Below, one piece after another: positions 3,444 to 32,832 of a DNA stretch of 41,204 nt. How positions within the stretch are numbered: the first letter of the stretch is position 1; every line of letters starts with the position of its first letter. The stretch comes from Candidatus Stoquefichus sp. Lineage in GTDB: Bacteria; Bacillota_I; Bacilli_A; Erysipelotrichales; Coprobacillaceae. A model generated the notes under the pieces. That model had not been told where the DNA came from. It did no database searches and saw only the letters and a program-made list of their open reading frames with translations. Location of the stretch: positions 1-41,204 of the forward strand of contig JAETUM010000047.1 of the NCBI GenBank assembly GCA_021768625.1, written 5' to 3'. The translations under genes and the position numbers were made by a program.

Positions 3444-3453
3444 GAGTGATAAT

Positions 3454-4830
3454 ATGGCACTATGGGCAGGAAGGTTTAAAAAAGAAATCGATGAAAATGT
3501 TAATGCATTTAATTCATCTATTTCATTTGATGCAAGAATGTATAAACATGATATTATGGGAAGTCAGGCACATGCAAAAATGCTTGCTAAACAAGGAATT
3601 ATTGATGAAATAAGTTTATATGAAATATTAAAGGGGTTAGATGAGATACTCAAAGAATTGGAAGATGGAACTTTGTTATTTGATCCTAATGCCGAAGATA
3701 TTCATATGTTTATAGAAAGTGAATTGACAAAAAGGTATCCTGTTAGTGGAAAAAAGTTACACACAGCGAGATCAAGAAATGATCAGGTTGCTTTAGATCT
3801 AAGATTATATACAAGAGATGAAATGCAAGACATAAAAGCAATGTTGATAGATTTGATAAATGTTATTATTGAACAAGCATCAAAGCATACAACAACAATC
3901 ATGTGTGGATATACTCATATGCAACGTGCCCAACCTATTACATTTGCTCATCATTTAATGGCTTATGCCGAAATGTTTTATAGAGATATTACAAGAATTA
4001 ATGATTGTTTTGAAAGAATGAATGTTTCGCCACTTGGGTGTGGTGCATTAGCAACAACAACTTATGATATTGATAGAATGTTTGTTGCTAAAGAATTAGG
4101 TATGAATGATATTACTTATAACTCATTAGATGGAGTAAGTGATAGAGATTATGCCATAGAATTTGCTAATGATTTAGCTTTAATCATGATGCATTTATCA
4201 AGATTTAGTGAAGAAATGATTTTGTGGTGTTCATGGGAATTCAAATATGTAGAGCTTGATGATGCTTATGCAACAGGTTCATCTATTATGCCTCAAAAGA
4301 AAAATCCTGATATAGCTGAATTGGTAAGAGGAAAAAGTGCTAGAGTTATAAGTCATGCTTCATCATTACTAACTATGATGAAAGGATTACCTCTCGCATA
4401 TAACAAAGATATGCAAGAGGATAAGGAAGCATTATTTGATGCTATTGACCAAGTGAAATTATGTTTACCTGTCTTTACAGATATGTTGAAAACAATGAAA
4501 GTCAATAGTGGAAAAATGAGAGAATTTGCTGCTAAAGGATTTATCAATGCAACAGATTGTGCAGATTATCTTGTTAAACATGGAAAGGCATTTAGAGATG
4601 CTTATAAAACAACAGGCCAATTGGTTGCCTATTGTATTGATCATGATGAGGTGTTAGAAACACTTTCATTAGATGTTTATCAATCCTTTGATCCTATTTT
4701 TGAAGAATCAATTTATGATGCTATTTCTTTAGAAACATGTGTGAAAAATCGTCAGGTAGATGGAGGACCATCACCAATAGCAGTACAAAAATCAATAACA
4801 TTAATGAAAGAAAAGGTGAAAGCTTTATGA
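3454..4830 (+). CDS. argH: Argininosuccinate lyase
   Basis: Splits argininosuccinate to arginine and fumarate. It is 458 residues, the usual length. The fumarase/aspartase superfamily signature GSSIMPQKKNPD lies near residue 275, and the LHTARSRNDQVALDLRL block and GYTHMQRAQP motif are typical of ArgH. It follows argG by 10 nt with its own GGAGTGA. Its stop codon overlaps the argC start as ATGA (4827-4830), so translation of the two is likely coupled. Confidence 0.97.
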   Translation: MALWAGRFKKEIDENVNAFNSSISFDARMYKHDIMGSQAHAKMLAKQGIIDEISLYEILKGLDEILKELEDGTLLFDPNAEDIHMFIESELTKRYPVSGKKLHTARSRNDQVALDLRLYTRDEMQDIKAMLIDLINVIIEQASKHTTTIMCGYTHMQRAQPITFAHHLMAYAEMFYRDITRINDCFERMNVSPLGCGALATTTYDIDRMFVAKELGMNDITYNSLDGVSDRDYAIEFANDLALIMMHLSRFSEEMILWCSWEFKYVELDDAYATGSSIMPQKKNPDIAELVRGKSARVISHASSLLTMMKGLPLAYNKDMQEDKEALFDAIDQVKLCLPVFTDMLKTMKVNSGKMREFAAKGFINATDCADYLVKHGKAFRDAYKTTGQLVAYCIDHDEVLETLSLDVYQSFDPIFEESIYDAISLETCVKNRQVDGGPSPIAVQKSITLMKEKVKAL

Positions 4831-5867
4831 ATAAAATAAAAGCAGGAATTATAGGTGCAAGTGGCTATGCTGGTGCTGAATTATTGAGATTATTGATTAA
4901 TCATGATGATGTTGAAGTTGTTGCTATCAGTTCACAAAGCTATTTAGGAAAGGCTATTTATGAACTATATCCATCTTTTTATGGTATTTGTGATATGGTG
5001 TTTGTGGAAGATCAGGTTGTTTTAGAAGAGAGTGATATTGTTTTTGCTTCTCTTCCTCATGGATTAAGTGAAAAATATGCAAAGTATTGTGATAATCATG
5101 ATAAAAAATTTATAGATTTAGGTGCTGATTTTAGATTAGATAATGAGAAAGACTATCAAGATTGGTATAACTTAAATTATCAAGAAAAGAATCTTCATCT
5201 TAAACAAGTCTATGGTTTAAGTGAAGTCAATAGAGAAAAAATAAAAAATGCAACATTAATTGGTAATCCTGGATGTTATCCAACATCTATTATGTTAGGA
5301 TTATATCCATTATTAAAAGAAAAAATGAATGCTTCAGATGATATTATTATTGATTCTAAATCAGGAACAACAGGAGCAGGTAAATCTTTAACAGAAGATA
5401 CCCATTTTCCTAGATGTAATGAGTCTTTTCATCCCTATAAGTTAGGATGCCATAGACATACACCTGAAATAGAACAAGAACTTTCTAAAATGGCAGATCA
5501 TGAAGTACATGTGACATTTACTCCGCATTTATTACCAGTTAATAGAGGGATTGTATCAACAATTTATGTTCCTTTAAAAGATCATATTCAAAGAGAAGAT
5601 GTTTATAAAATATATCATCAGTATTATGACTCAGAATATTTTGTAAGAGTTTTACCAGAAGGTAAAGTTGCAGATTTAAAATTTGTTAAATATTCTAATT
5701 TCTGTGATATATCATTACACTATGAACCACGTTATCATCAATTAATCATTGTTTCAACAATTGATAATATGGTAAAAGGTGCAGCAGGACAAGCTATTCA
5801 AAATATGAATATTATGTTTGGATTAGAAGAAACAAAAGGATTAAAGATGGTTCCCCCATCTTTCTAG
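4827..5867 (+). CDS. argC: N-acetyl-gamma-glutamyl-phosphate reductase
   Basis: NADPH-dependent reduction of N-acetylglutamyl phosphate to the semialdehyde, the third step of the acetylated ornithine pathway. It is 346 residues. The Rossmann motif GIIGASGYAGAELLRLL is at residues 7-23. The catalytic Cys is residue 150 in GNPGCYPTS. SGTTGAG and the HRHTPEIEQEL region are also typical. The ATG at 4827 overlaps the argH stop. A 30-residue upstream extension in the same frame lies inside argH and has no homologous look, so it is not used. argJ follows after 10 nt. Confidence 0.96.
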   Translation: MNKIKAGIIGASGYAGAELLRLLINHDDVEVVAISSQSYLGKAIYELYPSFYGICDMVFVEDQVVLEESDIVFASLPHGLSEKYAKYCDNHDKKFIDLGADFRLDNEKDYQDWYNLNYQEKNLHLKQVYGLSEVNREKIKNATLIGNPGCYPTSIMLGLYPLLKEKMNASDDIIIDSKSGTTGAGKSLTEDTHFPRCNESFHPYKLGCHRHTPEIEQELSKMADHEVHVTFTPHLLPVNRGIVSTIYVPLKDHIQREDVYKIYHQYYDSEYFVRVLPEGKVADLKFVKYSNFCDISLHYEPRYHQLIIVSTIDNMVKGAAGQAIQNMNIMFGLEETKGLKMVPPSF

Positions 5868-5877
5868 GAGGAAAAAT

Positions 5878-7092
5878 ATGAAAGATATACAAGGTGGAGT
5901 TTGTGCTCCTTTAGGATTTAAAGCAGCAGGAATACACTGTGGTATAAGAAAGAACAAATCAAAGAAAGATTTGGCTCTTATTGTCAGTGATGTCATGTGT
6001 CATGCTGCAAGCACATATACACTTAATAAAGTAAAAGGGGCTCCTATTGCAGTTACAAAACAACATTTACAAAATGGAGAAGCCAAAGCCATTATTTGTA
6101 ATAGTGGAAATGCCAATACATGTAACCCTGATGGTGAAGATATTGCCAATGCAGTCTGTGATTTATGTGCAGATGCATTAAAAATAAATGTTGACGACAT
6201 TATTGTTGCTTCAACAGGTGTCATTGGACAACCTTTATCTTTAGAACCTTTTCAAGATCATATGCAAGAATTAGTTGATGCATTGGGAAACCAAAATAGC
6301 AGTGATGCATGTGAAGGAATTATGACAACAGATACAGTAAAAAAAGAATATGCTGTTGAATTTGAATTGGAGGGGAAAACATGTCATGTAGGAGCCATTG
6401 CCAAAGGTAGTGGGATGATTCATCCTAATATGGCAACGATGCTTGCTTTTGTAACAACTGATGTTGCTATTTCAAAAGATATGTTAAATGAAGTTATTCA
6501 TGAAGTTGTTGATGATACATTTAATATGGTAAGTGTTGATGGAGATACATCTACAAATGATATGTTAAGTGTTATGGCTAATGGGTTGGCTCATAATCAA
6601 GAAATTGTTCAAAAAGATGATTATTATCAAATATTTAAAAATGCTCTTATGTATATTTGTACATGTTTATCAAAAGGAATTGCTAAAGATGGAGAAGGTG
6701 CTACAAAACTATTGACATGTAAAGTGACTAATGCTCAAAGTATTAAAGACGCTAAAGTTGTAGCTAAGTCTGTTATTACAAGTTCATTGTTTAAAGCAGC
6801 AATGTTTGGACGTGATGCAAATTGGGGACGTATACTATGTGCAATAGGTTATAGTGATGCGAATTATGATGTTGATAAAATTGAAGTTTCATTAGCAAGT
6901 CTTAAAGGTGAAATTTGTGTCTGTCAAAAGGGCAGAGGCTATCCTTTTAGTGAAGAAAAGGCATTAGAAATATTAAGTGAAGATGAAATAGATATTTTCA
7001 TTAATCTTCATGATGGTAACTTTCAAGCAACAGCTTGGGGTTGTGATTTAACTTATGATTATGTAAAAATTAATGGAGATTATAGAACATAG
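5878..7092 (+). CDS. argJ: Bifunctional ornithine acetyltransferase / N-acetylglutamate synthase
   Basis: Transfers the acetyl group from N-acetylornithine to glutamate, recycling acetyl in the arginine pathway; many members also make N-acetylglutamate from acetyl-CoA. It is 404 residues. The self-cleavage site is in KGSGMIHPNMATMLAF, between Ala186 and Thr187, with Thr187 becoming the nucleophile of the beta chain. The GDTSTND motif and the C-terminal GRDANWGRI block are also present. AGGAGG precedes the ATG by 5-8 nt. With argJ present a separate argA or argE is not strictly needed. Whether it is mono- or bifunctional cannot be told from the sequence. Confidence 0.95.
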   Translation: MKDIQGGVCAPLGFKAAGIHCGIRKNKSKKDLALIVSDVMCHAASTYTLNKVKGAPIAVTKQHLQNGEAKAIICNSGNANTCNPDGEDIANAVCDLCADALKINVDDIIVASTGVIGQPLSLEPFQDHMQELVDALGNQNSSDACEGIMTTDTVKKEYAVEFELEGKTCHVGAIAKGSGMIHPNMATMLAFVTTDVAISKDMLNEVIHEVVDDTFNMVSVDGDTSTNDMLSVMANGLAHNQEIVQKDDYYQIFKNALMYICTCLSKGIAKDGEGATKLLTCKVTNAQSIKDAKVVAKSVITSSLFKAAMFGRDANWGRILCAIGYSDANYDVDKIEVSLASLKGEICVCQKGRGYPFSEEKALEILSEDEIDIFINLHDGNFQATAWGCDLTYDYVKINGDYRT

Positions 7093-7103
7093 AGGAGAAG
7101 TAT

Positions 7104-7964
7104 ATGGTAAATAATTCTATTTTAAAAGCAGAAATATTATCACAAGCACTACCATATATTCAAAAATACAACAATAAAATTGTTGTCATTAAATATGGTG
7201 GCAATGCTATGATTAATGAAGAATTGAAGATGAATGTTATTACAGATGTTGTTTTATTATCTGAAATTGGCGTGAAGGTCATTCTTGTTCATGGTGGAGG
7301 ACCAGAGATTAATGGGACTTTAAAGAAGATTGGTAAAGAATCGAAATTCATTAATGGGCTAAGATATACAGATGAAGAAACAATAGATGTTGTACAAATG
7401 GTTTTAGCTGGAAAAACAAATAAAGATCTTGTAAAATTAATTATGCAAAAAGGTGGTAATGCCACAGGAATTAGTGGTATTGATAATATGCTTATTGAAG
7501 CAGAAAAATATGAATCAGAAGATGATTTAGGATATGTTGGAGCAGTTAAAGAAATTCATCCTAATATTATTATGGATATGTTGGATAAAGGGTATATTCC
7601 TGTTATAGCAAGTGTTGGTATGGATAAAGATGGACATACATACAACATTAATGCTGATACAGCAGCAGCTGAAATAGCGAGTGCTGTAGGTGCTGAAAAC
7701 ATGATATTAGTAAGTGATATACCAGGTTTATTAGAAGATAAAGATGATGAAAATACGTTATTACCTCTTGTTCATGTTTATGAAGTAAATAGTTTAATGA
7801 ATAAAGGTATTATTAGTGGTGGAATGATTCCAAAGGTAGATTGTTGTGTTCGAGCAATTAGGCAAAATGTTAAAAAGGCAGTCATTATTGATGGAAGAAT
7901 ACCACATTCTATATTGATAGAAATGTTATCTAAGGATGGTATTGGAACTATGTTTAAAAGATAA
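7104..7964 (+). CDS. argB: Acetylglutamate kinase
   Basis: Phosphorylates N-acetylglutamate, the second step and usual control point of arginine synthesis. It is 286 residues. The amino-acid-kinase fold is shown by IKYGGNAM near residue 30, VHGGGPEI near residue 66 and the [12 protein letters not shown] block near residue 180. SGGMIPK near residue 234 is typical of the nucleotide site. It belongs to the argGHCJBF operon, starting 11 nt after argJ with AGAGGAG. A stable hairpin begins at its stop codon. Confidence 0.96.
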
Positions 7965-7987
7965 AACAGTGGAATATCCACTGTTTT
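7963..7987 (+). other. Intra-operon hairpin between argB and argF
   Basis: A perfect 11-bp stem (7963-7973 with 7977-7987) with a 3-nt loop starts at the last base pair of the argB stop codon. Only four T residues form the 3' edge of the stem and no long T tract follows. It is more likely a partial attenuator, RNA processing site or mRNA stabiliser than a full terminator. It would change the argF dose relative to the upstream genes. Confidence 0.6.
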
Positions 7988-8010
7988 ACAATTATGAAAG
8001 GAAAAAATAT

Positions 8011-9012
8011 ATGGTTAATTTAAAGAATAGAAGTTTCTTAACATTAAAAGATTATTCTCAAGAAGAAATAAGATATTTATTGGATTTAGCACATCAATTG
8101 AAAAAAGCTAAGAAAGAAGGAAGAATTGGGAAGTCATTAGAAGGAAAGAATATTGTTTTAATCTTTGAAAAAACATCTACAAGAACAAGATGTTCATTTG
8201 AAGTTGCTGCATTAGATGAAGGTGGACATGTTACATTTTTGAGCAACTCTCAAATGGGAAAAAAGGAATCTATCGAAGATACAGCAAAAGTATTAGGTAG
8301 AATGTATGATGGTATTGAATTTAGAGGATTTAAACAAGAAACAGTAGAAGACTTAGCTAAATATTCTGGTATTCCAGTTTGGAATGGTTTAACAGATGTT
8401 GATCATCCTACACAAACATTAGCAGACTTTTTAACAATAGAAGAACACTTAAAGAAACCATTGAATCAAATTAAGTTTGTTTTTACAGGAGATATTAGAA
8501 ATAATGTATGTTATGGGCTTATGTATGGAGCAGTGAAAATGGGAATGCATTTTGTTGCTTTAGGTCCAAAGTCATTAAATATTGATCCAGAAGTTCTTGA
8601 TTATTGCCAAAAAGAAGCTCAAAAATCAGGCGGAAAAATTGAGGTTTTAGATAATGTTGATGAAGCAGTTAAAGATGCTGATGTTATTTATACTGATATA
8701 TGGGTAAGTATGGGAGAAGATGAAAGCTTGTATAAGACAAGAGTTGAAATGCTTTCACCATATAAAGTAACAGTTGATATGATGAAGAAAACAGGTAAAG
8801 AATCAAGTTTATTTATGCATTGTTTACCTTCGTTTCATGACTTTGAAACAGAAGTTGCTCAAGCAAAATATGAGCAGGGTATTGATATAAGAGAAGTAGA
8901 AGATGAAGTCTTTAGATCTCAAAATTCTGTTGTTTTTGATGAAGCAGAGAATAGAATGCATACAATTAAGGCTGTTATGGTTGCAACAATTGGGGAAGAA
9001 GTGGATTTATAA
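8011..9012 (+). CDS. argF: Ornithine carbamoyltransferase
   Basis: Makes citrulline from ornithine and carbamoyl phosphate. It is 333 residues. The carbamoyl-phosphate loop STRTR is at residues 56-60. [17 protein letters not shown] and HCLPSFHD (the ornithine-site Cys) follow in order. The ATG at 8011 is chosen because GAAAGGAAAAA precedes it; a longer frame from 7936 reads through the argB-argF hairpin. The sequence type is shared with the catabolic ArcB enzymes, but no arcA or arcC is nearby and the operon setting argues for a biosynthetic role. A clear terminator ends the operon. Confidence 0.95.
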
Positions 9013-20627: not shown

Positions 20628-21848
20628 TCAATTATCATATAATTGTTTTCTTTTAAAAGAATTAGGAATATTTGCTTCCTCTCTATATTTTGCTATTGTT
20701 CTTCTTGATATTTGAAATCCTTCCCTTTTTAATAAAAGAAATAATTCATAATCACTATAAGGAGCTTTTTTATTTTCATATATAATTATATTTTTAAGCA
20801 TATTTATTATATTTTTGTTTTTTTCTAACAGAGTTGGTTTTCGAAACAAGTCTTTAATAGAGAATATTTTATCCTGAAATAAATAATATTTATGAGAAAC
20901 ACATCGACTTACAGTAGATATATTAATACCTAAATTTATGGCAATATCTTGCATTTGACATACTTTTAAAGGCGAACCAAATAGGAAATGATGTTCTTGT
21001 ATTTTAATAATTTCATTCATTACAAAAAGTAAAGTTTTATTTCTTTTAGTAATATCTTCCATAAGAATAGAAGCATGATGAAAATAGTCTTTTAATATAG
21101 GATCTTGTGAAATTTGAAAAGAAAAATCTTTTAAAGTTTCTCTGGCAATATCTACAGAACGAACTTGAATTTTACCATCATGAATACTAATTTCTAAATC
21201 AGGAATAATAAGTTCTTCAGTTGTTGAATTATATTGAGCAGCAGGAAAAGGAGATTGTTCACGTATAACATCTATAGCATCATAGATTTCATCAATTGTT
21301 GTGTGATATTTTTTAGCTAAAGATGAATAATCTTGATTTAAAAGTGCATTTTGATCGTTTAAAAGAATTTGTAAAGCAAAAGTTTGAAAATCTTGTTCTA
21401 ATTGAATACAAATACTGTCTAATGAATTTTTAGCAAATACACCCGTAGGTTCTAGTTTTTGTAGTTCATGTAGTATATGTTGCCATTGATTGTTATTGAT
21501 ATGTAGTTGTTTACAATATTCTTTATCACTAAGAGTTAAGAAACCATTATCATCTAAAGATTCAATAATAAAATGTGCATGGGCTTGATCAACATCTAAT
21601 GAAACAACATGTAATTGAAAAAGTAAATCTGTAATTAGTGAATTATCCTGTTTATACAATTCTTGATGGACTTTAGGGTAAGAATAATATGGATTCCAAT
21701 GATATTCAAAATAACCTTTAGTAATTTTTTTTAATCGACTCATAAGTTCTGTATTATTCATCTTTAAAATTTCTAAAGATTGTTCTCTATCATAATTAAA
21801 ATTTTGTTTTTGTTTAATAGTTGGCACAATTAATTGCTCGTTTTTCAT
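20628..21848 (-). CDS. rpoN: RNA polymerase sigma-54 factor
   Basis: A 406-residue sigma-54, slightly shorter than usual. The C-terminal RpoN box appears as SRRTIAKYREEANIP near residue 382-396 (usual ARRTVAKYRE), which contacts the -24 element. The HTH region (MQDIAINLGINISTVSRCVSHKYY, near 300) lies before it. The N-terminal Region I (REQSLEILKMNNTELMSRLKKI) is only a weak version of the usual Gln/Leu-rich activator-contact region. In this window it is divergent from a sigma-54-dependent activator, with a mannose-type PTS downstream of that activator, so it likely serves that pathway. The ATG at 21848 is the first codon with a following Region I; its ribosome binding site is weak. Confidence 0.93.
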   Translation of the reverse strand: MKNEQLIVPTIKQKQNFNYDREQSLEILKMNNTELMSRLKKITKGYFEYHWNPYYSYPKVHQELYKQDNSLITDLLFQLHVVSLDVDQAHAHFIIESLDDNGFLTLSDKEYCKQLHINNNQWQHILHELQKLEPTGVFAKNSLDSICIQLEQDFQTFALQILLNDQNALLNQDYSSLAKKYHTTIDEIYDAIDVIREQSPFPAAQYNSTTEELIIPDLEISIHDGKIQVRSVDIARETLKDFSFQISQDPILKDYFHHASILMEDITKRNKTLLFVMNEIIKIQEHHFLFGSPLKVCQMQDIAINLGINISTVSRCVSHKYYLFQDKIFSIKDLFRKPTLLEKNKNIINMLKNIIIYENKKAPYSDYELFLLLKREGFQISRRTIAKYREEANIPNSFKRKQLYDN

Positions 21849-21976: not shown

Positions 21977-24763
21977 ATGGAAAAACAATTGATTTTATAT
22001 ATGAAACTTAAAACTCAACAAATCGATTTTAAAGATATATCTTTCTTTTCCTCAAATGCAATTGCTTTAGATATGGAAAAGAATAGAGTACAAATATCTA
22101 GAGAATTAAATAATTTAGTTAGAGAAGATATACTTATAAAAACGAATACAAGACCCGTTTATTTTTTTCATCGCCAAACTTTAGAAGAACAATTTCATGT
22201 TCATTTATCAAAAAATGTTTTTGATAGTATTGAAGAGCTTTTACAAGAAATTAAACCCAATACAATTCATCATATCTTTTCTCAACTTATTGGTTATAAT
22301 GGATCATTAAATCTATGCATAAATCAATGTATAGCAGCAATTAACTATCCTGGCAATGGACTTCCTATATTATTACAAGGGGCATCAGGGACTGGTAAAA
22401 GTTACATTGCTCAATTAATTTACCAATATGCAAATGCTACTGAAAAGATAAAAGGGAAATTTATTACTATTAATTGTGCAGAATATAGTAATAATCCAGA
22501 GCTTTTTTTAACAAATGTATTTGGATATAAAAAAGGTGCATATACAGGTGCTGATAGAGATCAAAATGGGATTTTATATCAAGCTAATCAAGGTGTTTTA
22601 TTCTTAGATGAGGTACATGGACTTTTACCAGAATGTCAAGAAAAAATATTTCAATTTATGGATAGTGGAATGTATCATAGGGTGGGTGATAATGAAAATT
22701 GGTATCATTCAAATGTTCAAATTATTATGGCTACTACAGAAAATCCAAATGATGTCCTATTAAAAACACTTTTACGACGTATCCCTCTTATCGTTCAAAT
22801 TCCAAATTTAAGTGAAAGACCATTACAAGAAAGAAAAGAGTTGATTCGCTATTTATTTAGTAAGGAAGAGGAATATATTCATCGAAAAATAGAAATTTCT
22901 AGAATGGTATATCATGTATTGCAATCAGTTTTTTTTCAGGGAAATATAGGTAAAATAAAAAATATAATTAAAACAACAGTTGCAAATGCCTTATTAAAAA
23001 ATATGACAATTGATGTTGTATATATTCATATAAGAGATTTTCCACCTGATTTATTAAAAAGTATTTCTACACAAGGAATTAATCTTTTAGATGATAAAAA
23101 GATGTTAAAAATTGAAACACTATTAACTTCTCATCATATCGAACAACATTTCTATCGTTTTAATAAAGATGTTGTTAATTATTTAAATAAAAATAATAAA
23201 AGCTTTCTTAATGAGACAGAAGAACAATTTATTTATGATAAAGTTAAAATATATATAGATTATTTATTTTATGATAATAAAAAAAATACGATTTATGATA
23301 ATGATATGAGTTTAGGATTTATTGAGCAAGCCTTGAGTATGATAGAAAAGAAGTATTTCATTAAACATTTTTCAAATAATGAAATGGAAATTATTTATCG
23401 CTTTATCTCAAATTTTTCAGGTCTAGAGAATGTAGATAGTATAGGATTAACTATAGCAGAAATACATTCAGCGATGCAGGTAGTAAAGGGAGTACAAAAT
23501 TTTCAATTAGATAAAAATATTATAAAAGATTTTATTGATTTGATTAAGGATACATTTCTTATTCCACATATTGAAATCTTTGAACTGGATTTAATGATTC
23601 TATTTATATACTTGCTTAAAGATTATGATAACCTTCCAGCAACAGGTTTGATTATTGCACATGGATATTCTATTGCTAGTGAAATGGCAAAAGTTTCCAA
23701 TCAACTCTTACAAAGACATATATTTGATGCTATTGATATGCCAATTAATAGTAATTTTGAAGATATTGTAGAAGAATTAAAAAGATATTTAGATAGTTTG
23801 CCTAAACGTATTCAAGATGTTATTGTTTTAGTTGATATGGGTTCATTGGAAATTGTACATGAGAGTTTAAAAAATTATTCTTTTAATATTGGTATTATTA
23901 ATAATGTTACAACAAGAATGAGTTTAGAGGTAGGAAATAAACTTATTCAAAACGAAGACATTAAACAAATTCTAGAACAAACAAGTGCTCAAAATATTAG
24001 CTACTTTACACTTATACGTAAACAAAATAAGCCTGATTTAATCTTGACAGTATGTGAGACAGGGATTGGAATGGCAAATATGATTGTAGATTTAGTAAAA
24101 AGAAGTTTTCCTAAAGATGTCAATATCCTTGTTATTCCTTATGATTATCATAGTTTGTTGTATGAAGGTAAAAAACTCCCAATCTTTGAAAATTATCATG
24201 TATGTTTTATATTGGGAACACAAAATCCGCAAATAGACAATATTCCATTCTTATCTATATATGATATTATGGATGGAAGAAATAAGCGTTACATTGAGGA
24301 ATTAATGAGAGGACATTTAAGTGGTATACAAATAGAAAGTTTTTGTAGAGAGATATTAAAGAATTTTTCTATTGAAAATTTAAAGAATTATTTAAATATT
24401 ATTTCTCCTAAAAAAATAATTACATACATTGAAAAAATCACAGATAATATTCAAAGAATGTTAGAAATAGAATTTAATCCCAACTTACTTTGTTGTCTTT
24501 ATATACATATAGCATGTATGATTGAAAGAGTTCTTCTTCATGAGGAGATTGATAGTTTTGAGGGTGTAGATATATTTATATATAAGCATGAGGATTTTTA
24601 TATAAAAATAAAATCAGCATTTAATGAAATTGAACAAGTGTATGGTCTTAGTATACCAGATCAAGAAATTGCATATTTATATGAATATATATATTCTCAA
24701 AAGGATGGTAGTGTAACAGAAGATAAAAATAGTGTAATAGATAATCATTATTTTTTAGATTAA
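21977..24763 (+). CDS. LevR-type sigma-54-dependent PTS regulator
   Basis: A 928-residue multidomain activator of sigma-54 promoters. An HTH region (30-60) is followed by an AAA+ domain with Walker A GASGTGKS (135-142), the sigma-54 contact loop GAYTGA (187-192) and Walker B LFLDEVH (208-214). Next come PRD1 (around 440-540) with a degenerate His site, an EIIA-Man-like domain with His562 in IIAHGYSIA, an EIIB-Gat-like domain with Cys693 in CETGIG, and PRD2 with His844 in YIHIACMIERVL. Phosphorylation of these residues by HPr and the cognate EIIB would tune activity. It lies immediately upstream of a mannose-family PTS operon, which is its probable target, and next to rpoN. AGAGAGG precedes the ATG. 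Confidence 0.92.
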   Translation: MEKQLILYMKLKTQQIDFKDISFFSSNAIALDMEKNRVQISRELNNLVREDILIKTNTRPVYFFHRQTLEEQFHVHLSKNVFDSIEELLQEIKPNTIHHIFSQLIGYNGSLNLCINQCIAAINYPGNGLPILLQGASGTGKSYIAQLIYQYANATEKIKGKFITINCAEYSNNPELFLTNVFGYKKGAYTGADRDQNGILYQANQGVLFLDEVHGLLPECQEKIFQFMDSGMYHRVGDNENWYHSNVQIIMATTENPNDVLLKTLLRRIPLIVQIPNLSERPLQERKELIRYLFSKEEEYIHRKIEISRMVYHVLQSVFFQGNIGKIKNIIKTTVANALLKNMTIDVVYIHIRDFPPDLLKSISTQGINLLDDKKMLKIETLLTSHHIEQHFYRFNKDVVNYLNKNNKSFLNETEEQFIYDKVKIYIDYLFYDNKKNTIYDNDMSLGFIEQALSMIEKKYFIKHFSNNEMEIIYRFISNFSGLENVDSIGLTIAEIHSAMQVVKGVQNFQLDKNIIKDFIDLIKDTFLIPHIEIFELDLMILFIYLLKDYDNLPATGLIIAHGYSIASEMAKVSNQLLQRHIFDAIDMPINSNFEDIVEELKRYLDSLPKRIQDVIVLVDMGSLEIVHESLKNYSFNIGIINNVTTRMSLEVGNKLIQNEDIKQILEQTSAQNISYFTLIRKQNKPDLILTVCETGIGMANMIVDLVKRSFPKDVNILVIPYDYHSLLYEGKKLPIFENYHVCFILGTQNPQIDNIPFLSIYDIMDGRNKRYIEELMRGHLSGIQIESFCREILKNFSIENLKNYLNIISPKKIITYIEKITDNIQRMLEIEFNPNLLCCLYIHIACMIERVLLHEEIDSFEGVDIFIYKHEDFYIKIKSAFNEIEQVYGLSIPDQEIAYLYEYIYSQKDGSVTEDKNSVIDNHYFLD

Positions 24764-24833: not shown

Positions 24834-24850
24834 TGGCACATTTAATTGCT
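24834..24850 (+). promoter_or_regulatory. Candidate sigma-54 promoter of the PTS operon
   Basis: TTGGCAC at 24833-24839 matches the -24 element and TTGCT at 24846-24850 matches the -12 element. The GG and GC are 11 nt apart (24835-24836 and 24848-24849), one more than the usual 10. It lies 35 nt upstream of the EIIA start codon, downstream of a terminator and beside rpoN and its activator, so the context strongly supports a sigma-54 promoter despite the spacing. Confidence 0.6.
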
Positions 24851-24884: not shown

Positions 24885-25319
24885 ATGAGACAATTCATTA
24901 TTGCATCACATGGAGAGCTAGCATCAGGGATAGTAAGTGCAGCAAAAATGATTATTGGCGATGTTACAAGAGTGAAAAGTTGTAATTTAAGTGATTATGA
25001 AACAGTTTATGATTTATATGAAAACGTAAAATCATGTATAGTAGCAAATCCAGAAATAGAATATGTCTTAATGACTGATTTATTAGGTGGAAGTGTAAAT
25101 AATTTACTTATGCAGTTATGTGAATATAAAAATGTCTTTATTGTTACAGGTATGAACTTAGGACTTTTATTAGAATTGTATTTATCAAGTGAAAATGAAC
25201 AAACTAAAATTGCAGCTTTAAAAGCAATTGAATCATCAAAGAATAATATTCGTTTATTTGCTTACCCAATTAGTGATTATGTTGAGCAAAGTGAACAAAA
25301 GGAGGTGAATCTGTGGTAG
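24885..25319 (+). CDS. PTS EIIA, mannose/fructose/sorbose family
   Basis: A 144-residue EIIA of the mannose class. The phosphorylation site is His9 in FIIASHGELASG, and the hydrophobic fold with TDLLGGS near residue 66 is typical. It receives phosphate from HPr and hands it to EIIB. AAAGGAGG precedes the ATG. It is the first gene of the operon and follows the candidate sigma-54 promoter. The end overlaps the EIIB start by 7 nt (25313-25319), so the two are coupled. Sugar specificity cannot be read from EIIA. Confidence 0.93.
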   Translation: MRQFIIASHGELASGIVSAAKMIIGDVTRVKSCNLSDYETVYDLYENVKSCIVANPEIEYVLMTDLLGGSVNNLLMQLCEYKNVFIVTGMNLGLLLELYLSSENEQTKIAALKAIESSKNNIRLFAYPISDYVEQSEQKEVNLW

Positions 25320-25789
25320 TACTTTTAAGAATTGATGATCGTCTTTTACATGGACAAGTCGCTTTTTCATGGTTGAATACAATGGGACCAGATGCAATTG
25401 TCATAGCAAATGATGAAATATTGAGTAATGAAATTCAAAAAACAGCAATTAAAATGGCAAAACCTGCTGGAATTAAAATGACAATTCGTTCTTTAGAAGA
25501 TGGTATTGATTTAATTAATAATGATCGAGTTAAAAAAATGAAATTATTTGTTGTTGTGAAAACAACAGAAGATGCTTTAAAAGTCATTAAAAGAATTAAA
25601 GAAAAAATTCCTTTAGTTAATATTGGGGGAATGTCGAATCGTACAAAAGGAAATAACAATATTGCTAAAGGTGTCTATTTAAGTGATCAAGATATTATCA
25701 ATGTGAAAGAAATACAAAAATTAGTTGATAAAGTAGATGTCCGTATTGTTCCTACGGATAAAAAAAGGAATATTAATGATTTAATTTAA
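25313..25789 (+). CDS. PTS EIIB, mannose/fructose/sorbose family
   Basis: A 158-residue EIIB. The N-terminal LLRIDDRLLHGQV carries the phosphorylated His13 typical of the family, and NIGGMSNRTKGN near residue 103 is also conserved. It phosphorylates the sugar during transport through EIIC-EIID. It uses a GTG start at 25313; AAAGGAGG lies 7-14 nt upstream within the end of the EIIA gene. EIIC follows after 17 nt with its own AAGGAGGA. Confidence 0.92.
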   Translation: MVVLLRIDDRLLHGQVAFSWLNTMGPDAIVIANDEILSNEIQKTAIKMAKPAGIKMTIRSLEDGIDLINNDRVKKMKLFVVVKTTEDALKVIKRIKEKIPLVNIGGMSNRTKGNNNIAKGVYLSDQDIINVKEIQKLVDKVDVRIVPTDKKRNINDLI

Positions 25790-25806: not shown

Positions 25807-26598
25807 ATGTTTGTAGAAGCTTTGCTAGTAGCGATAGTTGTAGCTATATGCTACTATTTGAATATGTGGTTTGGATATATTTTTACAGATAAACCAATCA
25901 TTGTTGGAACATTAGTGGGTTTTGTTTTAGGTGATTTACAGACTGGAATTATTTGTGGTGCTACATTTGAGTTGATTTTCTTAGGGGCAGTTAATATTGG
26001 AGGAGCAGTTCCAAGTGATCCTACAGCAGGAACAGCTGTAGCAACAGCTTTTGTTATTTTGACAGGAATGTCTACTGAGGAAGCCATGGCTTTAGCAATC
26101 CCAACAGGTTTGTTGATGGCGCAAGCTCAAATGCTTACATACATTTTCCCAAGTTTTTTCAATGGTTATATTGATAGTTTAATTGAAAGAGATAAAGATA
26201 AAGGATTTGGATGGATGATTGTTTTTCTTTTACTTTTCCGTACATTGGTAGAAGCTATATTCCCATTTATAGTTATCTTTTTAGGAACAGATGCAATAAC
26301 TGCAATTATGGCATATTTGCCAGAAGTTGTTACTGGAGGATTTTCAGTTGCTGGAGGAATGCTAGCAGCAGTCGGATTTGCAATGTTATTAAAGATGATT
26401 TGGACTAAAGAGCTTGCTGTATATTTCTTTGTTGGGTTCTTTATGGCTACATATTTGAATATTCCAACATTAGGAATTGCAATTGCAGGGTTATTATATT
26501 GTATCGTTAAATATTATACTATGAAAGAACAACCATCTTATACACAAATAAGTGGTATGAACGCTTCATTAGGAGAGGAGGATTTATTCAATGACTAA
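25807..26598 (+). CDS. PTS EIIC, mannose/fructose/sorbose family
   Basis: A 263-residue membrane permease subunit with about eight hydrophobic segments. GTLVGFVLGDLQTGIICGATFELIFLGAVNIGGAVPSDPTAGTAVATAF (residues 34-80) is the typical EIIC-Man core; the GAVPSD loop lies near the sugar path. It pairs with EIID in the membrane. The end of the gene overlaps the EIID start by 8 nt. The protein length is normal and no residue is clearly out of place. Confidence 0.92.
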   Translation: MFVEALLVAIVVAICYYLNMWFGYIFTDKPIIVGTLVGFVLGDLQTGIICGATFELIFLGAVNIGGAVPSDPTAGTAVATAFVILTGMSTEEAMALAIPTGLLMAQAQMLTYIFPSFFNGYIDSLIERDKDKGFGWMIVFLLLFRTLVEAIFPFIVIFLGTDAITAIMAYLPEVVTGGFSVAGGMLAAVGFAMLLKMIWTKELAVYFFVGFFMATYLNIPTLGIAIAGLLYCIVKYYTMKEQPSYTQISGMNASLGEEDLFND

Positions 26599-27424
26599 GA
26601 AAAATTCAATTTTACATTTAGAGCCAGAAGATAAAAAAATGGTTAACTCCATTGCTTGGAGAATGATGGTAGGAAGTTCTCCTTACCAATATGAAAAAAT
26701 GCAGGCACTTTCTTTTCTTTATGCAATGACACCAGCTATTAAACGTTATTATAAAGATGATAAAGAAGGACGTATTGCTGCTTATAAGCGTCATTGGGAA
26801 CTTTGGAATACAACTCCACAGGTTGCAGGAATTGTTGCAGGGTTAGCCGCATCAATGGAACGTGAAGCATCAAAAAATCCTGATTATGATGTAAATAGTA
26901 TTAATGCACTTAAAGTTTCTTTAATGGGTCCATTAGCAGGTATTGGAGATTCTTTCTTTTGGGGATCTTTGAAGATTATAGCAACAGGTATTGGGGTTTC
27001 TTTTGCATTGCAAGGAAATATATTAGGTCCAATTTTATATTTCTTAGTTTATAATATTCCATCATCTTTAATAAGGCATTTATTTCCAGTTATAGGATTT
27101 AATTTGGGAAATAGTTTTATGGAAAAAATGAATAAAGCTGGAATTATGCCATTCTTAACAAAATGTTGTAATATTATTGGAATTATGATGGTAGGCGCTA
27201 TGGCATGTTCGATGGTTACGCTTAAAATTCCATTTGTATATGAAGCACATGGAGCGACTATCAATGTTCAAGAAATTATAGATTCTATTTTACCAAATGC
27301 ATTACCAATGGGTCTTACATTGTTATGTTTTTGGATGTTGAAAAAGAAAAATGTTTCACCAACAGTACTTATTATCTCATTGATTATTGTATCTATTGCA
27401 TTACATGCAATTGGTATTTTATAA
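26591..27424 (+). CDS. PTS EIID, mannose/fructose/sorbose family
   Basis: A 277-residue EIID, the subunit unique to the mannose class. The N-terminal SIAWRMMVGSSPYQYEKMQALSFLYAMTPAIKRYY block (near residue 14-50) and PQVAGIVAGLAASMERE near 77 are typical. SLMGPLAGIGDSFFWG near residue 110 is a family signature. Several membrane segments follow in the C-terminal half. AGGAGGA precedes the ATG, inside the end of the EIIC gene. With the full A-B-C-D set, this operon encodes a complete transporter that delivers a sugar phosphate to the cytoplasm. Confidence 0.93.
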   Translation: MTKKNSILHLEPEDKKMVNSIAWRMMVGSSPYQYEKMQALSFLYAMTPAIKRYYKDDKEGRIAAYKRHWELWNTTPQVAGIVAGLAASMEREASKNPDYDVNSINALKVSLMGPLAGIGDSFFWGSLKIIATGIGVSFALQGNILGPILYFLVYNIPSSLIRHLFPVIGFNLGNSFMEKMNKAGIMPFLTKCCNIIGIMMVGAMACSMVTLKIPFVYEAHGATINVQEIIDSILPNALPMGLTLLCFWMLKKKNVSPTVLIISLIIVSIALHAIGIL

Positions 27425-27467: not shown

Positions 27468-28241
27468 ATGTTAAGTAAAGAAGAAATCATAAAAAGTTTA
27501 GAAGGTGGTTTAATTGTTTCTTGTCAAACAGAACCAGGAGATTGTATCCATAATGATGGTCAAACAGTTGTTACAATGGCAAAAGCAGCACAATGGGGTG
27601 GAGCAGTAGCTATTCGTGCAAATAGTCCAGAACAAGTAAAAGCTATACATGAAGCAGTAGATCTTCCAATTATAGGATTAGATAAAATCTATTATGACAA
27701 TATGGATTATTTAATTATGACACCAACAATTGAACATGCAAAAGCATTATGGGAAGCTGGAGCAAGAATTATTGCTTTAGAAGCAACAGATCGTCCAAAT
27801 CATTTAGGAGTACCAACTCGTGATTTAATTCCTGCAATTAAAAGAGAACTTCCAGATGCAATTATTTTTGCAGATGTGGATAATATAGAGAATGCGAAAG
27901 CAGCAGCTATGTTAGGTGCAGATATTGTAGCTCCAACATTAACAGGATATACAGAAGCAACAGCTTATGTTACTGAACCACCTGCATTTAGAGAGGTTGC
28001 ACAAATGTGTCGAGAAGTAGATGTTCCAGTTGTTATGGAAGGACATGTTTATGATCCAGAATCAGCAATGAAAAGTTTATATCTTGGATGTCATGCAGTT
28101 GTTGTAGGTAGTGCTATAACACGTCCTCACTTTATTGTTAAAAGATTTACTGATTTAATGAGTAAATTCCCTGTAGACTCTAACTGGAGAAATGATGAAA
28201 AGAAATGGACAGGACCAATTACTAAAATAAATAAAGATTAA
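27468..28241 (+). CDS. NanE-like N-acylmannosamine-6-phosphate 2-epimerase, divergent
   Basis: A 257-residue TIM-barrel protein of the NanE family, which converts ManNAc-6-P to GlcNAc-6-P. SCQTEP at 18-23, Lys73 in GLDKIYYD (position of the catalytic Lys in GIIKRDY), Glu191 in VMEGH (position of the second catalytic residue) and TLTGYTEA near 158 match. It departs from NanE in several conserved places: IALEAT (usual IALDAT), FADVDNIEN (usual ADISTxEE) and GAVAIR (usual GAVGIR). The catalytic pair is kept, but the substrate may differ. It lies between the PTS and the glycyl radical enzyme with its own AAGGAG, so it probably acts on the sugar phosphate the PTS delivers. Confidence 0.85.
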   Translation: MLSKEEIIKSLEGGLIVSCQTEPGDCIHNDGQTVVTMAKAAQWGGAVAIRANSPEQVKAIHEAVDLPIIGLDKIYYDNMDYLIMTPTIEHAKALWEAGARIIALEATDRPNHLGVPTRDLIPAIKRELPDAIIFADVDNIENAKAAAMLGADIVAPTLTGYTEATAYVTEPPAFREVAQMCREVDVPVVMEGHVYDPESAMKSLYLGCHAVVVGSAITRPHFIVKRFTDLMSKFPVDSNWRNDEKKWTGPITKINKD

Positions 28242-28272: not shown

Positions 28273-30576
28273 ATGGGTAGTATCGTAGATGAAGGATTAT
28301 CAGGAGAAAACAATGTAGAGATTCTTGCAAAATTTCCATGTGAAAAGTCTTTAGAAGAACAATTACAGGTTATGGAACTTTATACTGAAAAGCATAAGGA
28401 AACAAAAGGTATGCCAAAAGGGAAAAGAGAAATTGCTTGTATGAGAGTTTTATTCCCTAGAATGTTCCGTAAAAGACAAAAAGAAGATCTATTTGTAGGA
28501 AGATATGATGCCTTACCTATTGGCTTTGGAGCAGTTACTTCATTAGGTGGTGTAGGACATTATTGTGTATTTGGAAAATTAAGTACATTCCAACAGCAAT
28601 TAGAAAAGGAAGAAGATAAACAAAGAGTTAATGCACTTATTGAATATTGGAATGATCATGATTTAAAAGCTAAACATGCTAGAAAATATAATGATAAAAT
28701 TGTTAATAAAGTTTTTTCAAAAAATTCTTTAGATGCACCTATTGAAAGTTCAGCACGTTTAAGTGGAATGATGCTTGACTACAATAAGTTAGTTGAAAAA
28801 GGAGTTAAAGGATTACGACAAGAAACTTTATCTAGAATGTGTGATGATAAAGATAATGAATTTTATTTAGCTGTATTAGATGCATTAGACTTATTTAGTG
28901 ATTGTTGTGATTATTTGGCAAAACAGGTTGAAGATGAAATAACATATGCAGATAAAGACCAAATAGAAGATTTAAAAGTCATTGTTGAAAGTCTTCATGT
29001 TATTAGAGAAGAACCACCAAAGACATTTCATCAAGCAATTCAAATTGTATGGCTTTATGCTATCTTAGCTGGAATCATTAATTATGGAAGATTAGATGAT
29101 GTTGTTGGAACATTCTTAAAACATGATTTAGATACAGGATATATTACATATGATAAAGCAAAAGAATATGTTAAATGTCTTTGGACAATGATAGAGAATA
29201 AAAGAACAACAGTTAATGGAAGAGTTATAGTAGGTGGAAGAGGTAGAAAAGACCCTGAAGCAGCTGATATTTTTACTAGAATAGCTTTAGAAGTATGTCA
29301 TGAATGTCGTTATGTAGAACCTCAATTTACATTAAGAATATATGAAGATACACCAGAAGATATATTTGATAAGGCAATGCAATGTTTAGCAGATGGAGCA
29401 ACATATCCAACTTTATATAATGATAAAGTACATGTTCCTGGACTAGCACATTGTATGAAAGTATCAGAAAGAGAAGCAGAACAATATGCCCCATTTGGAT
29501 GTGGAGAAATGAATATTGTTGGAAAAACAGTAGGAACTCCAAATGCAACTATTAATCTTACAAAAACTTTAAATATATTTATGAATGGTGGTATTGATCC
29601 TTATGATAATGTCTATAAAGGTGATGGAGTTCATTTAAAGAGTCTAGAAGATATATCTTCTTATCAAGAGTTTTATAATGAATATTTAGTCTTGGTTGAT
29701 CATTATTTAGATATTCTTGCTTATTCTCAAGCCAAATCATATGAAAGCATGAATAATGATGTTGACTTTGTTTTTAATAGTATATTGATGGATAATTGCT
29801 TAGCAAGTGGAAAGCCACTTCTAGGAGGTGGTGTTACGTATCTTGGTGGATGCTGTGAAACATTTGGAAATACAAACACAGCAGATGCTCTAACAGCTAT
29901 TAAAAAACTTGTCTTTGAAGAAAAGAAATATACATTAACTGAAATTAATAAAGCATTACTTGCTGATTTTGAAGGATATGAGATGATGAGAAAAGATATG
30001 CTTGAATGTCCAAAATATGGAAATGATGATGATTATGCAGATAAAGTATATTTAGAGTTATATGATCATGTATCAAGATATACAAGAGAAGCAGGAATAC
30101 GTAATGGATTACATCATTATGGAATTGTTATTATAAATAACCAACAAAATACAGATTGGGGATTATTAACAAGTGCATCAGCAGATGGAAGAAAGAATAC
30201 TGTTTACTTAAATCCAAGTAATAATCCACAAGGAGGAGCAGATAAAAATGGTCCAACTGCGGTATTAAAATCTATATCAAAATTAGATTCACGTTTCCAT
30301 CTAGGATCAGTTCAAAATATTAAATTCCAAAGTGATTTCTTTAAAGATAATATGGAAAAAATAAAAACAATGATAAAAACATATTTTAATCAATTAGGTG
30401 GATGTCAGTTAATGGTAACAGTAGTTGATGCAGGAGCATTGGAAGATGCTATGGTACATCCTGAAAAATATCCTGATATGATTGTAAGAGTGAGTGGATT
30501 TAGTGCAGTATTTGTTAATTTAAGTAAAGAAGTACAAATGGAACTATTAAGTAGAACACTCAATGCGAGGGTATAG
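28273..30576 (+). CDS. Glycyl radical enzyme, unassigned subgroup
   Basis: A 767-residue member of the pyruvate formate-lyase-like superfamily. Active-site Cys410 and Glu412 are in FGCGEMN, and the radical site is Gly742 in RVSGFSAVF. Dehydratases and C-O lyases of the superfamily have GCVE at this point; the GCGE here is unusual. PFL itself has adjacent Cys-Cys and no Glu, so a formate-lyase role is unlikely. The Cys-x-Glu pattern fits a dehydratase or C-O/C-N lyase acting on a polyol-like or sugar-like substrate. The activase follows after 2 nt; NanE-like and PTS genes precede. By analogy with the E. coli enzymes YbiW and PflD, which open anhydrosugar phosphates, a phosphorylated sugar substrate is plausible. 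GAGGAGG precedes the ATG. Confidence 0.9.
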   Translation: MGSIVDEGLSGENNVEILAKFPCEKSLEEQLQVMELYTEKHKETKGMPKGKREIACMRVLFPRMFRKRQKEDLFVGRYDALPIGFGAVTSLGGVGHYCVFGKLSTFQQQLEKEEDKQRVNALIEYWNDHDLKAKHARKYNDKIVNKVFSKNSLDAPIESSARLSGMMLDYNKLVEKGVKGLRQETLSRMCDDKDNEFYLAVLDALDLFSDCCDYLAKQVEDEITYADKDQIEDLKVIVESLHVIREEPPKTFHQAIQIVWLYAILAGIINYGRLDDVVGTFLKHDLDTGYITYDKAKEYVKCLWTMIENKRTTVNGRVIVGGRGRKDPEAADIFTRIALEVCHECRYVEPQFTLRIYEDTPEDIFDKAMQCLADGATYPTLYNDKVHVPGLAHCMKVSEREAEQYAPFGCGEMNIVGKTVGTPNATINLTKTLNIFMNGGIDPYDNVYKGDGVHLKSLEDISSYQEFYNEYLVLVDHYLDILAYSQAKSYESMNNDVDFVFNSILMDNCLASGKPLLGGGVTYLGGCCETFGNTNTADALTAIKKLVFEEKKYTLTEINKALLADFEGYEMMRKDMLECPKYGNDDDYADKVYLELYDHVSRYTREAGIRNGLHHYGIVIINNQQNTDWGLLTSASADGRKNTVYLNPSNNPQGGADKNGPTAVLKSISKLDSRFHLGSVQNIKFQSDFFKDNMEKIKTMIKTYFNQLGGCQLMVTVVDAGALEDAMVHPEKYPDMIVRVSGFSAVFVNLSKEVQMELLSRTLNARV

Positions 30577-30578
30577 TT

Positions 30579-31481
30579 ATGAATGCATATATTATGGAAG
30601 TAGAAAAATTTGCTATACATGATGGACCTGGTATAAGAAGTGTGGTCTTTCTACAAGGGTGCCCTTTAAGATGTCCATGGTGTGCTAATCCTGAATCACA
30701 AGAAATAAAATCTCAACTTATGTATAAAGAAAAAACATGTATTAAATGTGGAAAATGTGTTGTTAATTGTCCACAAAAAGCGATTTCTATTGTAGATGGG
30801 AAATTACAATTTGATAGAGAAAAGTGTATAAAATGTGAAACATGTGCAATTAATTGCCCAGTAAGTGCAATTCATTTTATTGGAAAAAGTGTTGAGATAG
30901 AAGAAATTATGCAAGAAGTATTAAAAGATAAACCTTTTTATATTGAATCTCAAGGAGGAGTCACAATATCAGGAGGTGAACCTTTTGTACAATTTGCAGT
31001 ATTAAAGGAATTGTTAGTAAGGTTAAAAGAAGAAGGAATATCAACAGCTGTTGAAACAACAGGAGATACAGACTGGGAAAAAATAGAAGAATGTCTTCCA
31101 TATATTGATTTGTTTTTGTTTGATGTTAAACATAGTCAAGCATCTGAAATAAAAAGAGTTACTAAAGGTAATGGAGAACGAATATTATATAATTTAAAAA
31201 AATTAGCTTCTGTTGCAGCGAATAAGATCATTATTAGAACACCAGTTATACCAGAATTTAATTATGATTCTAAAACAATAAAAGAAATTATTGATTTAGG
31301 AGCAAAGTATCAAGTATCAGAAGTTCATTTGTTACCTTATCATACATTAGGAACATCAAAATATGAACAATTAGATAGAGAGTATACTTTACAAGGTATA
31401 AAAATGCTATCAAAAGATGATTTAAAAGATTTTGTAGAATACGGGAAAAGTCTTGGTGTGAATATACAAGCAGGAGGATAA
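30579..31481 (+). CDS. Glycyl radical enzyme activase (radical SAM)
   Basis: A 300-residue radical SAM protein that abstracts hydrogen from the Gly of the partner enzyme. The cluster motif CPLRCPWC is at 28-35 (Cys28, Cys32, Cys35). It is followed by an inserted ferredoxin-like region with two sets of four Cys (54, 57, 60, 64 and 83, 86, 89, 93), as in activases of dehydratase-type glycyl radical enzymes. PFL activase lacks this insert, which supports a non-PFL partner. GISTAVETTGD near 150 and the VIPEFN strand near 223 are typical. The ATG lies 3 nt after the stop of the enzyme gene with GCGAGGGT as ribosome binding site. Confidence 0.93.
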   Translation: MNAYIMEVEKFAIHDGPGIRSVVFLQGCPLRCPWCANPESQEIKSQLMYKEKTCIKCGKCVVNCPQKAISIVDGKLQFDREKCIKCETCAINCPVSAIHFIGKSVEIEEIMQEVLKDKPFYIESQGGVTISGGEPFVQFAVLKELLVRLKEEGISTAVETTGDTDWEKIEECLPYIDLFLFDVKHSQASEIKRVTKGNGERILYNLKKLASVAANKIIIRTPVIPEFNYDSKTIKEIIDLGAKYQVSEVHLLPYHTLGTSKYEQLDREYTLQGIKMLSKDDLKDFVEYGKSLGVNIQAGG

Positions 31482-31788: not shown

Positions 31789-32832
31789 ATGATAAAAATG
31801 AATAAAAATACAACCCAAAGTTTAAGAAAAATTAATCAAGAAAAAATTATTAAAGCACTACGAGACCATGGAGAATCTAACAAAAATCAATTATCAGAAT
31901 ATACTTCATTAAGTGTTGGAACATGTTATAACATTTTAATGGATTTATTAGAAACTAAGGAAGTTATTCGTGGTGATGGTTTTGCTTCAACAGGTGGAAG
32001 AAAGGCAAAAAGCTACAAATTGAATGAAGATTTTTCATATATATTAGCTGTATCAATGTATCGAAAATTTGAAGAAATTTATTATATTTTGAGAGTATAT
32101 AATCATATAGACCAGCAGGTTTATGAATATATTTCACAAAAAAGAGTTATAAATTTTGAAGATTTATATAATGATATTGTGCAAGTCAATAAACAATTTC
32201 CAAATATTTGTATTATTTCCTTGGCAATACCAGGAATAGTCTCTAAAGAAGGGCAATTAGAAAAGATTTCAATGGTCAAAGGACTAGAAAAAATATCGCA
32301 AGTCCATATGAAAGAAAAACTTGAAACATTACTTCACAAAAAAGTGATTTTAGATAATGATGTTAATATTGCAACTATTGGATATTATTCTTTACATACA
32401 GATATTAAAAATATTGCTTTTATTTATCAACCATTAGATGAATTAGCAGGATTCTCTTTTATTGTAGATGGACGTTTATTACGTGGACAACATGGACTTA
32501 TTGGAGAAGCTCCTTATTTACCAATATTGAATCAAGAACAACAATATCATTATTTAGAAACTCATGAAGGAACTTATGAACTTTTAGTGAAATTTATAGT
32601 ATTGATTATGCTTATGAATGATCCACAACAAATTATTATATGTTGTCAAGAAAATATAGATATTAAACAAATATATAATGGTATTTTTAAATATATTCCA
32701 GATAAAAATTTTTTTCCAAGTATAAATGTTTATAAGGATATTAATGAATTTATTTTTGCAGGGTTGATATTCATCAGTAGAGAAATACTTAATACAAATT
32801 TAGTTATGAAAATGCAAAGTGTATATAAATAA
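31789..32832 (+). CDS. ROK-family (NagC/XylR-type) transcriptional regulator
   Basis: A protein of up to 347 residues. Residues 12-75 form a winged HTH (EKIIKALRDHGESNKNQLSEYTSLSVGTCYNILMDLL, then a GGRK wing). The rest has a ROK fold: VILDNDVNIATIGY near 188 and IAFIYQPLDELAGFSFIVDGRLLRGQHGLIGEAPYLP near 208-244 are typical. The ATP-binding DxGGT is lost (VSMYRKFEE) and the Cys-rich zinc motif is absent, so it is a sensor and not a kinase. It probably binds a sugar or sugar phosphate and represses. The start may be 31789 or the ATG at 31798; neither has a strong ribosome binding site. It lies behind the operon with its own promoters and shares a transcript with the PHP gene. Confidence 0.85.
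   Translation: MIKMNKNTTQSLRKINQEKIIKALRDHGESNKNQLSEYTSLSVGTCYNILMDLLETKEVIRGDGFASTGGRKAKSYKLNEDFSYILAVSMYRKFEEIYYILRVYNHIDQQVYEYISQKRVINFEDLYNDIVQVNKQFPNICIISLAIPGIVSKEGQLEKISMVKGLEKISQVHMKEKLETLLHKKVILDNDVNIATIGYYSLHTDIKNIAFIYQPLDELAGFSFIVDGRLLRGQHGLIGEAPYLPILNQEQQYHYLETHEGTYELLVKFIVLIMLMNDPQQIIICCQENIDIKQIYNGIFKYIPDKNFFPSINVYKDINEFIFAGLIFISREILNTNLVMKMQSVYK

Follow-up and report, generated by a model that had tools for sequence, protein, structure and literature searches.

Does an unusual residue beside the thiyl-radical Cys of a glycyl radical enzyme (GRE) mark an enzyme group of its own, and what might such a group do? GREs are often behind medically important gut chemistry, such as that of choline, hydroxyproline, and isethionate. 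A 2024 review lists the functions of many abundant gut GREs as unassigned (PMC11574389). The question is raised here by the gene for an oxygen-sensitive GRE in a 41,204-nucleotide stretch of DNA from a gut-type bacterium, a Candidatus Stoquefichus sp. (the window, by which we mean the whole stretch that was analyzed), where the Cys loop reads GCGE and the operon also encodes a mannose-family PTS and a homologue of the epimerase NanE (Table 1). We find that the motif belongs to a clade that is a real, new, and well-delimited variant within a known enzyme class, widespread and uncharacterized, and that its pairing with a sugar-phosphate epimerase points to an undescribed anaerobic route of sugar breakdown.

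Table 1. Features of the GRE operon and its surroundings, in window coordinates
Feature	Position	Strand	Basis
rpoN, sigma-54 factor, divergent neighbor of the operon activator	20628..21848	-	Pfam Sigma54_CBD, Sigma54_DBD
DagR/LevR-type sigma-54-dependent activator with PRD and EIIA	21977..24763	+	NCBIfam DagR; Pfam Sigma54_activat, PRD, EIIA-man
Mannose-family PTS EIIA	24885..25319	+	Pfam EIIA-man
Mannose-family PTS EIIB	25313..25789	+	Pfam PTSIIB_sorb
Mannose-family PTS EIIC	25807..26598	+	Pfam EII-Sor
Mannose-family PTS EIID	26591..27424	+	Pfam EIID-AGA
NanE-type N-acetylmannosamine-6-phosphate 2-epimerase homologue	27468..28241	+	NCBIfam PRK01130, 229.6 bits (cut-off 189)
GRE of the GC[GT]E clade	28273..30576	+	Pfam PFL-like (375 bits) and Gly_radical; tree; AlphaFold2 model
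GCGEMN Cys loop (thiyl-radical Cys410, Gly411, Glu412)	29497..29514	+	Translation, alignment
GTPN (421-424), clade-specific; Asn424 aligns with glycerol dehydratase Asp447	29533..29544	+	Alignment
Glycyl radical loop RVSGFSAV (Gly742 codon 30496-30498)	30487..30510	+	Translation, alignment
Radical-SAM activating enzyme of the GRE	30579..31481	+	NCBIfam TIGR02494, 339.8 bits (cut-off 174)
NagC/ROK-type protein with N-terminal DNA-binding region	31789..32832	+	Pfam ROK, 46 bits; NCBIfam NagC, 34 bits (below cut-off)

The Cys Loop of the Window GRE

The GRE open reading frame is intact, encodes 767 amino acids, and starts at an ATG with the Shine-Dalgarno sequence AGGAGG. Both Pfam domains score above their cut-offs, and the superfamily features are present: a C-terminal RV[SAG]G[FY]-type glycyl loop, a catalytic Cys loop, and a PFL-like barrel. 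The Cys loop translates to G409-C410-G411-E412-M413-N414 (Cys410 TGT at 29500, Gly411 GGA, Glu412 GAA), which confirms the GCGE motif with retained Cys410 and Glu412 that the initial annotation had read there; its description of the RVSG radical site at Gly742 (codon GGA, in IVRVSGFSAV) as normal is likewise correct. By its motif, the enzyme would fall among the CXE-class GRE eliminases. Other enzymes read GCVET (HypD), GCIET (YbiW), and GCVEL (PflD) at this place, and IslA has Cys-Ile-Glu (PMC8473560). The annotation had also held that Pro commonly follows the CXE triad, a view that our sample contradicts: GCVEP occurs in only 3 of 96 other GREs, the commonest forms being GCVET (38) and GCVEL (18).

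Position 411 Marks a Clade

The clade is represented here by 98 relatives that are 36-64% identical to the window GRE. In a common alignment, Cys410, Glu412, and Gly742 are invariant in all 98, and C-x-E is found in every one with x as Gly (53 members) or Thr (45). Outside the clade, position 411 is mostly Val (85) with a few Ile (4), and Gly or Thr occurs in none of the 96 comparison GREs, which are not a census but a sample taken from genomes that host the clade, from relatives of these genomes, and from a small number of reference records. Because Gly or Thr is fixed at 411 in 98 of 98 relatives and found in 0 of 96 other GREs, the motif goes beyond chance or sequencing error. Non-clade GREs in this alignment are below 34% identity, mostly at 20-30%.

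A 91-sequence tree, which was built without column 411 by a quick LG+G4 search and has long branches in the outgroup, places the clade on one branch with an SH-aLRT value of 100, which bears out the earlier suggestion of a separate subgroup; GCGE was found in none of the characterized GREs checked. Gly stands at 411 in every deep branch and Thr has about three origins, with four changes in total, so that Gly is the older state on this tree and GC[GT]E marks the whole clade, with no subgroup bearing a PTS set apart by GCGE alone. The two residues interchange within a single clade, and the idea of GCGE as the mark of a subclade is not upheld. An apparent tracking of Gly and Thr with PTS and ROK kinase genes, respectively, was set aside, as it is inseparable from phylogeny on the tree (three independent pairs, no significance).

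When 84,980 species genomes were scanned on the basis of an alignment, with only two short patterns, 162 encoding stretches came up. We retained 80 of these, at 50-64% identity; their hosts belong to Bacillota, Bacteroidota, Actinomycetota, and Spirochaetota. A match at E ≤ 1e-150 is present in 53 of the 316 genomes from the order to which the window belongs. Deeper members include a group at 42-43% identity (L175-L179), also from the window's order, and two enzymes at 36-37%, that of Persicobacter psychrovividus (L036) and a second GRE of Clostridium lacusfryxellense (L228/L248). A single-protein scan of viral contigs gave no match and no sign of phage carriage; an equivalent scan of genome contigs was also matchless.

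The two clade GREs of C. lacusfryxellense are at about 53% and 37% identity (L248:8700-10895). The 37% enzyme lies among Gfo/Idh, GH31, and GH27/36-like genes, and neither an activase nor NanE was recognized in the stretch read.

Active-Site Changes Outside the Cys Loop

Is 411 the only residue that distinguishes these enzymes? The segment of beta-2 before GR[LM]D has 17 residues in all 98 clade members vs 22-25 (23 in 61) in 69 other eliminases, so the clade's loop is six residues shorter. The beta-1 His that is present in most sampled eliminases is replaced by SGMM-type residues, and T422-P423-N424 (TPN) is a clade signature. Seven further residues, Asn270, Thr312, Arg317, Asn622, Asn623, Asn650, and Gln681, do not vary within the clade and are seldom found in other GREs; a pocket so rich in Arg, Asn, and Gln would fit a polar, phosphorylated substrate. 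The initial annotation had taken the change beside the Cys as a possible signal of different substrate geometry. Altered geometry is plausible because further pocket residues are changed as well, but there is no support for residue 411 as its cause. Residue 411 serves to mark the clade and does not prove that the geometry is altered.

The AlphaFold2 model of the window GRE (pLDDT 88, pTM 0.90) has the GRE fold, with TM scores of about 0.84 to glycerol dehydratase, propanediol dehydratase, CutC, HypD, YbiW, and PflD. Its top structural matches are B12-independent glycerol dehydratase (1r8w) and propanediol dehydratase (5i2g), with which the clade shares the Cys/Glu/Gly radical machinery. This closeness, together with the variation of X in the CXE of characterized enzymes (V, I, and others), could be taken to mean that 411 is neutral or structural, with Gly and Thr as lineage markers, and that the clade does the job of a known eliminase such as either of these dehydratases. 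We consider this very unlikely. In structural alignments, the enzyme shares only 18-24% identity with solved GREs, and no curated full-length NCBIfam GRE model (PFL, PFL2-3, HypD, CutC, HpsG, IAD, HPAD) is reached, with scores of 92-302 bits against cut-offs of 678-1150; the best is PFL2-3 (302 bits, cut-off 678), and HypD (265/1100), CutC (264/1050), and HpsG (262/1000) are other examples. Where 1r8w has GCVEP, the clade has GC[GT]E without the Pro, and it lacks the His164 region and Asp447, the latter being replaced by Asn424. No propanediol or glycerol pathway genes and no microcompartment genes were recognized in the clade's operons. HypD resembles the clade in its CXE eliminase fold and is among the best sequence matches, but it reads GCVET, and its His160 and Asp278 have no clade counterpart; both the beta-1 His160 and Asp278 are essential in HypD (PMC7077986).

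NanE as the Recurring Partner

In the window, the GRE gene lies between those for the NanE homologue and the activase, downstream of the PTS genes. We call the activator DagR-like only, because it scores 429.6 bits against an NCBIfam DagR cut-off of 1400. A near-consensus sigma-54 -24/-12 site before the EIIA gene (TTGGCACATTTAATTGCT at 24834) was not counted because 11 rather than 10 bases separate its GG and GC. The NagC/ROK-type protein is probably a regulator, and we are unsure whether it belongs to the operon. Elsewhere in the window, an ordinary arginine biosynthesis run (argG, argH, argC, argJ, argB, argF; 2223-9012) was read from the open reading frames.

Across loci, an activase is present in 69 of 80 and NanE in 55 of 80. 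NanE lies within 3 kb of the GRE in 50 of the 61 loci with 3 kb or more of sequence on either side, and within 1.3 kb of 47/83 clade genes vs 0/20 other eliminases (p ~1e-6). The pairing recurs in four phyla with differing transporters and regulators. Thus, the part of the earlier expectation that concerned NanE-like neighbors stands; the part that concerned the PTS does not, as a mannose PTS occurs within six genes in a minority of about 7 of 80 loci (6/36 Gly-type, 1/44 Thr-type). A ROK kinase is found in 23 of 80, all but one of the Thr type, and the regulators are AraC with the Thr type and mostly DeoR with the Gly type. Listeria immobilis has a minimal set made up only of DeoR, activase, NanE, GRE, and PTS IIBCDA (L074). 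The nearest relative (64%, L040) has the PTS and GRE in an operon without NanE, and about one-fifth of the loci with room have no nearby NanE, which counts against the link. Other neighbors vary by lineage (ManA, DeoC, Gfo/Idh, GH94-like proteins, and others), and the clade members may therefore not share a single substrate.

The partner scores above the NCBIfam cut-off for NanE, and six catalytic residues (SaNanE numbering: Gln11, Arg40, Lys63, Asp124, Glu180, Arg208) are kept in 57-58 of 58 GRE-linked NanEs, the window copy included. Tyr149, which contacts the acetamide group according to the published residue roles (PMC8482478), is kept in 54 of 58. The partner differs from NanE near the phosphate and the catalytic lysine (Asn182 to His, Gly204 to Ser, Ala179 to Met, Arg64 to Ile/Val).

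In the sister group at 42-43% identity, the GRE sits in a large cluster that encodes NanE, a PTS of the mannose family, a protein with a SIS domain, and a NagA above the curated cut-off, with Eda-type and DeoC-type aldolases and several ManA-like proteins (L176, L177, L178, L179). MurQ-related SIS proteins include NagS, which dehydrates GlcNAc-6-P and ManNAc-6-P (PMC12680351). By analogy, the SIS protein and NanE of this group may point indirectly to N-acetylhexosamine-6-phosphates. One of the ManA-like proteins, of about 600 amino acids, has no Pfam or NCBIfam match at the thresholds used.

Proposed Reaction and Competing Explanations

The clade conserves its radical Gly and Cys, its CXE Glu, its activase, and its partner genes. 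We propose, at a probability of about one in two, that the GC[GT]E-clade GREs are eliminases acting on a hexose-type or, more narrowly, an N-acetylhexosamine-type 6-phosphate, in series with NanE. We infer elimination chemistry from the CXE class and a phosphorylated substrate from the gene context; the N-acetyl group is a guess. More tentatively, an undescribed radical elimination on N-acetylhexosamine-6-phosphate, or a direct derivative of it, could together with NanE make up a dedicated anaerobic amino-sugar pathway, spread over four phyla and mostly over host-associated anaerobes.

In the proposed sequence, modeled on the CXE-class mechanism (PMC8473560), the downstream activase would place the radical on Gly742, from which it would move to Cys410. 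The Cys410 thiyl would abstract a hydrogen from a hydroxyl-bearing (carbinol) carbon of the substrate, Glu412 would deprotonate the hydroxyl of that carbon, and the vicinal substituent would then be eliminated, as with other CXE eliminases. The 6-phosphate substrate may be supplied by the mannose-type PTS in the window and by the ROK kinase in Bacteroidota. The adjoining NanE-type 2-epimerase would tie the substrate to the pool of ManNAc-6-P and GlcNAc-6-P, and it may either feed the GRE or drain it. C2 epimerization of an aldehyde sugar by NanE alone leaves the need for a radical elimination unexplained. Two NagA homologues, which can take up GlcNAc-6-P, are encoded in the window genome as well. 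A search of the open-access literature found no paper that joins GREs with N-acetylmannosamine-6-phosphate.

Among the nearest described enzymes are E. coli YbiW and PflD, which open 1,5-anhydrohexitol-6-phosphates, cleaving 1,5-AG6P and 1,5-AM6P (PMC12441222). Like the clade, they combine the GRE eliminase fold with CXE, a dedicated activase, and a 6-phosphate sugar delivered by a PTS; in contrast, they have CIE or CVE in place of C[GT]E, are only about 21-22% identical, and have a beta-2 loop six residues longer. The clade might open the same compounds to 1-deoxyketose-6-phosphates, with another aldolase or a NanE homologue acting next. The supply logic would be equal, the GRE model has TM scores of about 0.83-0.85 to both enzymes, and some loci encode Gfo/Idh oxidoreductases that are distantly like 1,5-anhydrofructose reductase, DeoC-type aldolases, or, at L078, a GH31 enzyme. 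However, the partner of YbiW/PflD-type enzymes is the FSA aldolase, which lies within 1.3 kb of 0/83 clade genes vs 10/20 other eliminase genes (Fisher p ~8e-9); the sole FSA in any clade locus (L090) lies next to a different GRE, one of the GCVE type. With NanE showing the reverse distribution, the clade's slot in its pathway therefore differs from that in anhydroglycolysis. A 1-deoxyketose lacks the C1 aldehyde on which NanE chemistry would act, YbiW and PflD are unlike the clade in their pocket residues and at the beta-1 His, and the window genome already has, on another contig, a PflD-like GRE adjoining its own FSA. Because FSA is missing from the clade's loci, we rank this route second, as an unlikely one.

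A further explanation is that the GRE and NanE are merely co-regulated and catalyze separate reactions, with NanE serving ordinary ManNAc use and the GRE acting on a nonsugar or unphosphorylated compound, for example, the aglycone of an imported glycoside. Besides the loci without NanE, its inconstant adjacency (directly upstream of the GRE in 43 of 91), the diverse neighbors (GH94-like proteins, ABC importers, Gfo/Idh proteins with TIM-barrel isomerases), and the radical-free processing known for PTS sugars all speak for separate roles. Against these stand the persistence of the pairing in four phyla despite the change of transporters and regulators and the fact that the NanE in the GRE operon is the sole one in the window genome (a single match). 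We judge separate roles to be improbable, below the anhydrohexitol route, and retain the NanE-linked elimination on a 6-phosphate as the preferred reading.

If this reading is true, a radical step coupled to NanE would be a new oxygen-free use of sugar phosphates. The clade can be recognized from a single line of sequence, its partner genes recur, and its hosts include some that can be cultured (Parabacteroides distasonis, Listeria immobilis, Enterococcus, Holdemanella biformis, and Thomasclavelia); a specific substrate class is therefore testable.

Additional Gene Arrangements

Tandem arrays of four clade GREs occur in ruminant-gut Erysipelotrichaceae MAGs (L045:5985-15170, the same as L180:4705-13890, and L044:43-9228). 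The array from a goat jejunum MAG (L045/L180) is accompanied by two copies of NanE, a single activase, and a PTS of the mannose type, and one GRE copy in the L044 array is apparently split over two frames. Such arrays suggest that the paralogues are each adapted to a different sugar phosphate.

A GH94-like protein of about 740 amino acids accompanies Thr-type GRE loci (L049:8066-10300 and ten further copies, at L051, L054, L061, L066, L072, L075, L081, L084, and L094). It scores 46 bits to Pfam GH94, and its model is nearest to cellobiose, cellobionic-acid, and chitobiose phosphorylases at 12-16% identity, a range that does not fix the substrate; it is possibly an undescribed phosphorylase that feeds the pathway. 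In Parabacteroides, Tannerella, and Dysgonomonas, DUF1080 and/or Gfo/Idh/MocA proteins often follow the GRE operon (L035, L058, L062, L071, L078, L080, L082, L085, L092), an arrangement that resembles 3-keto-glycoside pathways.
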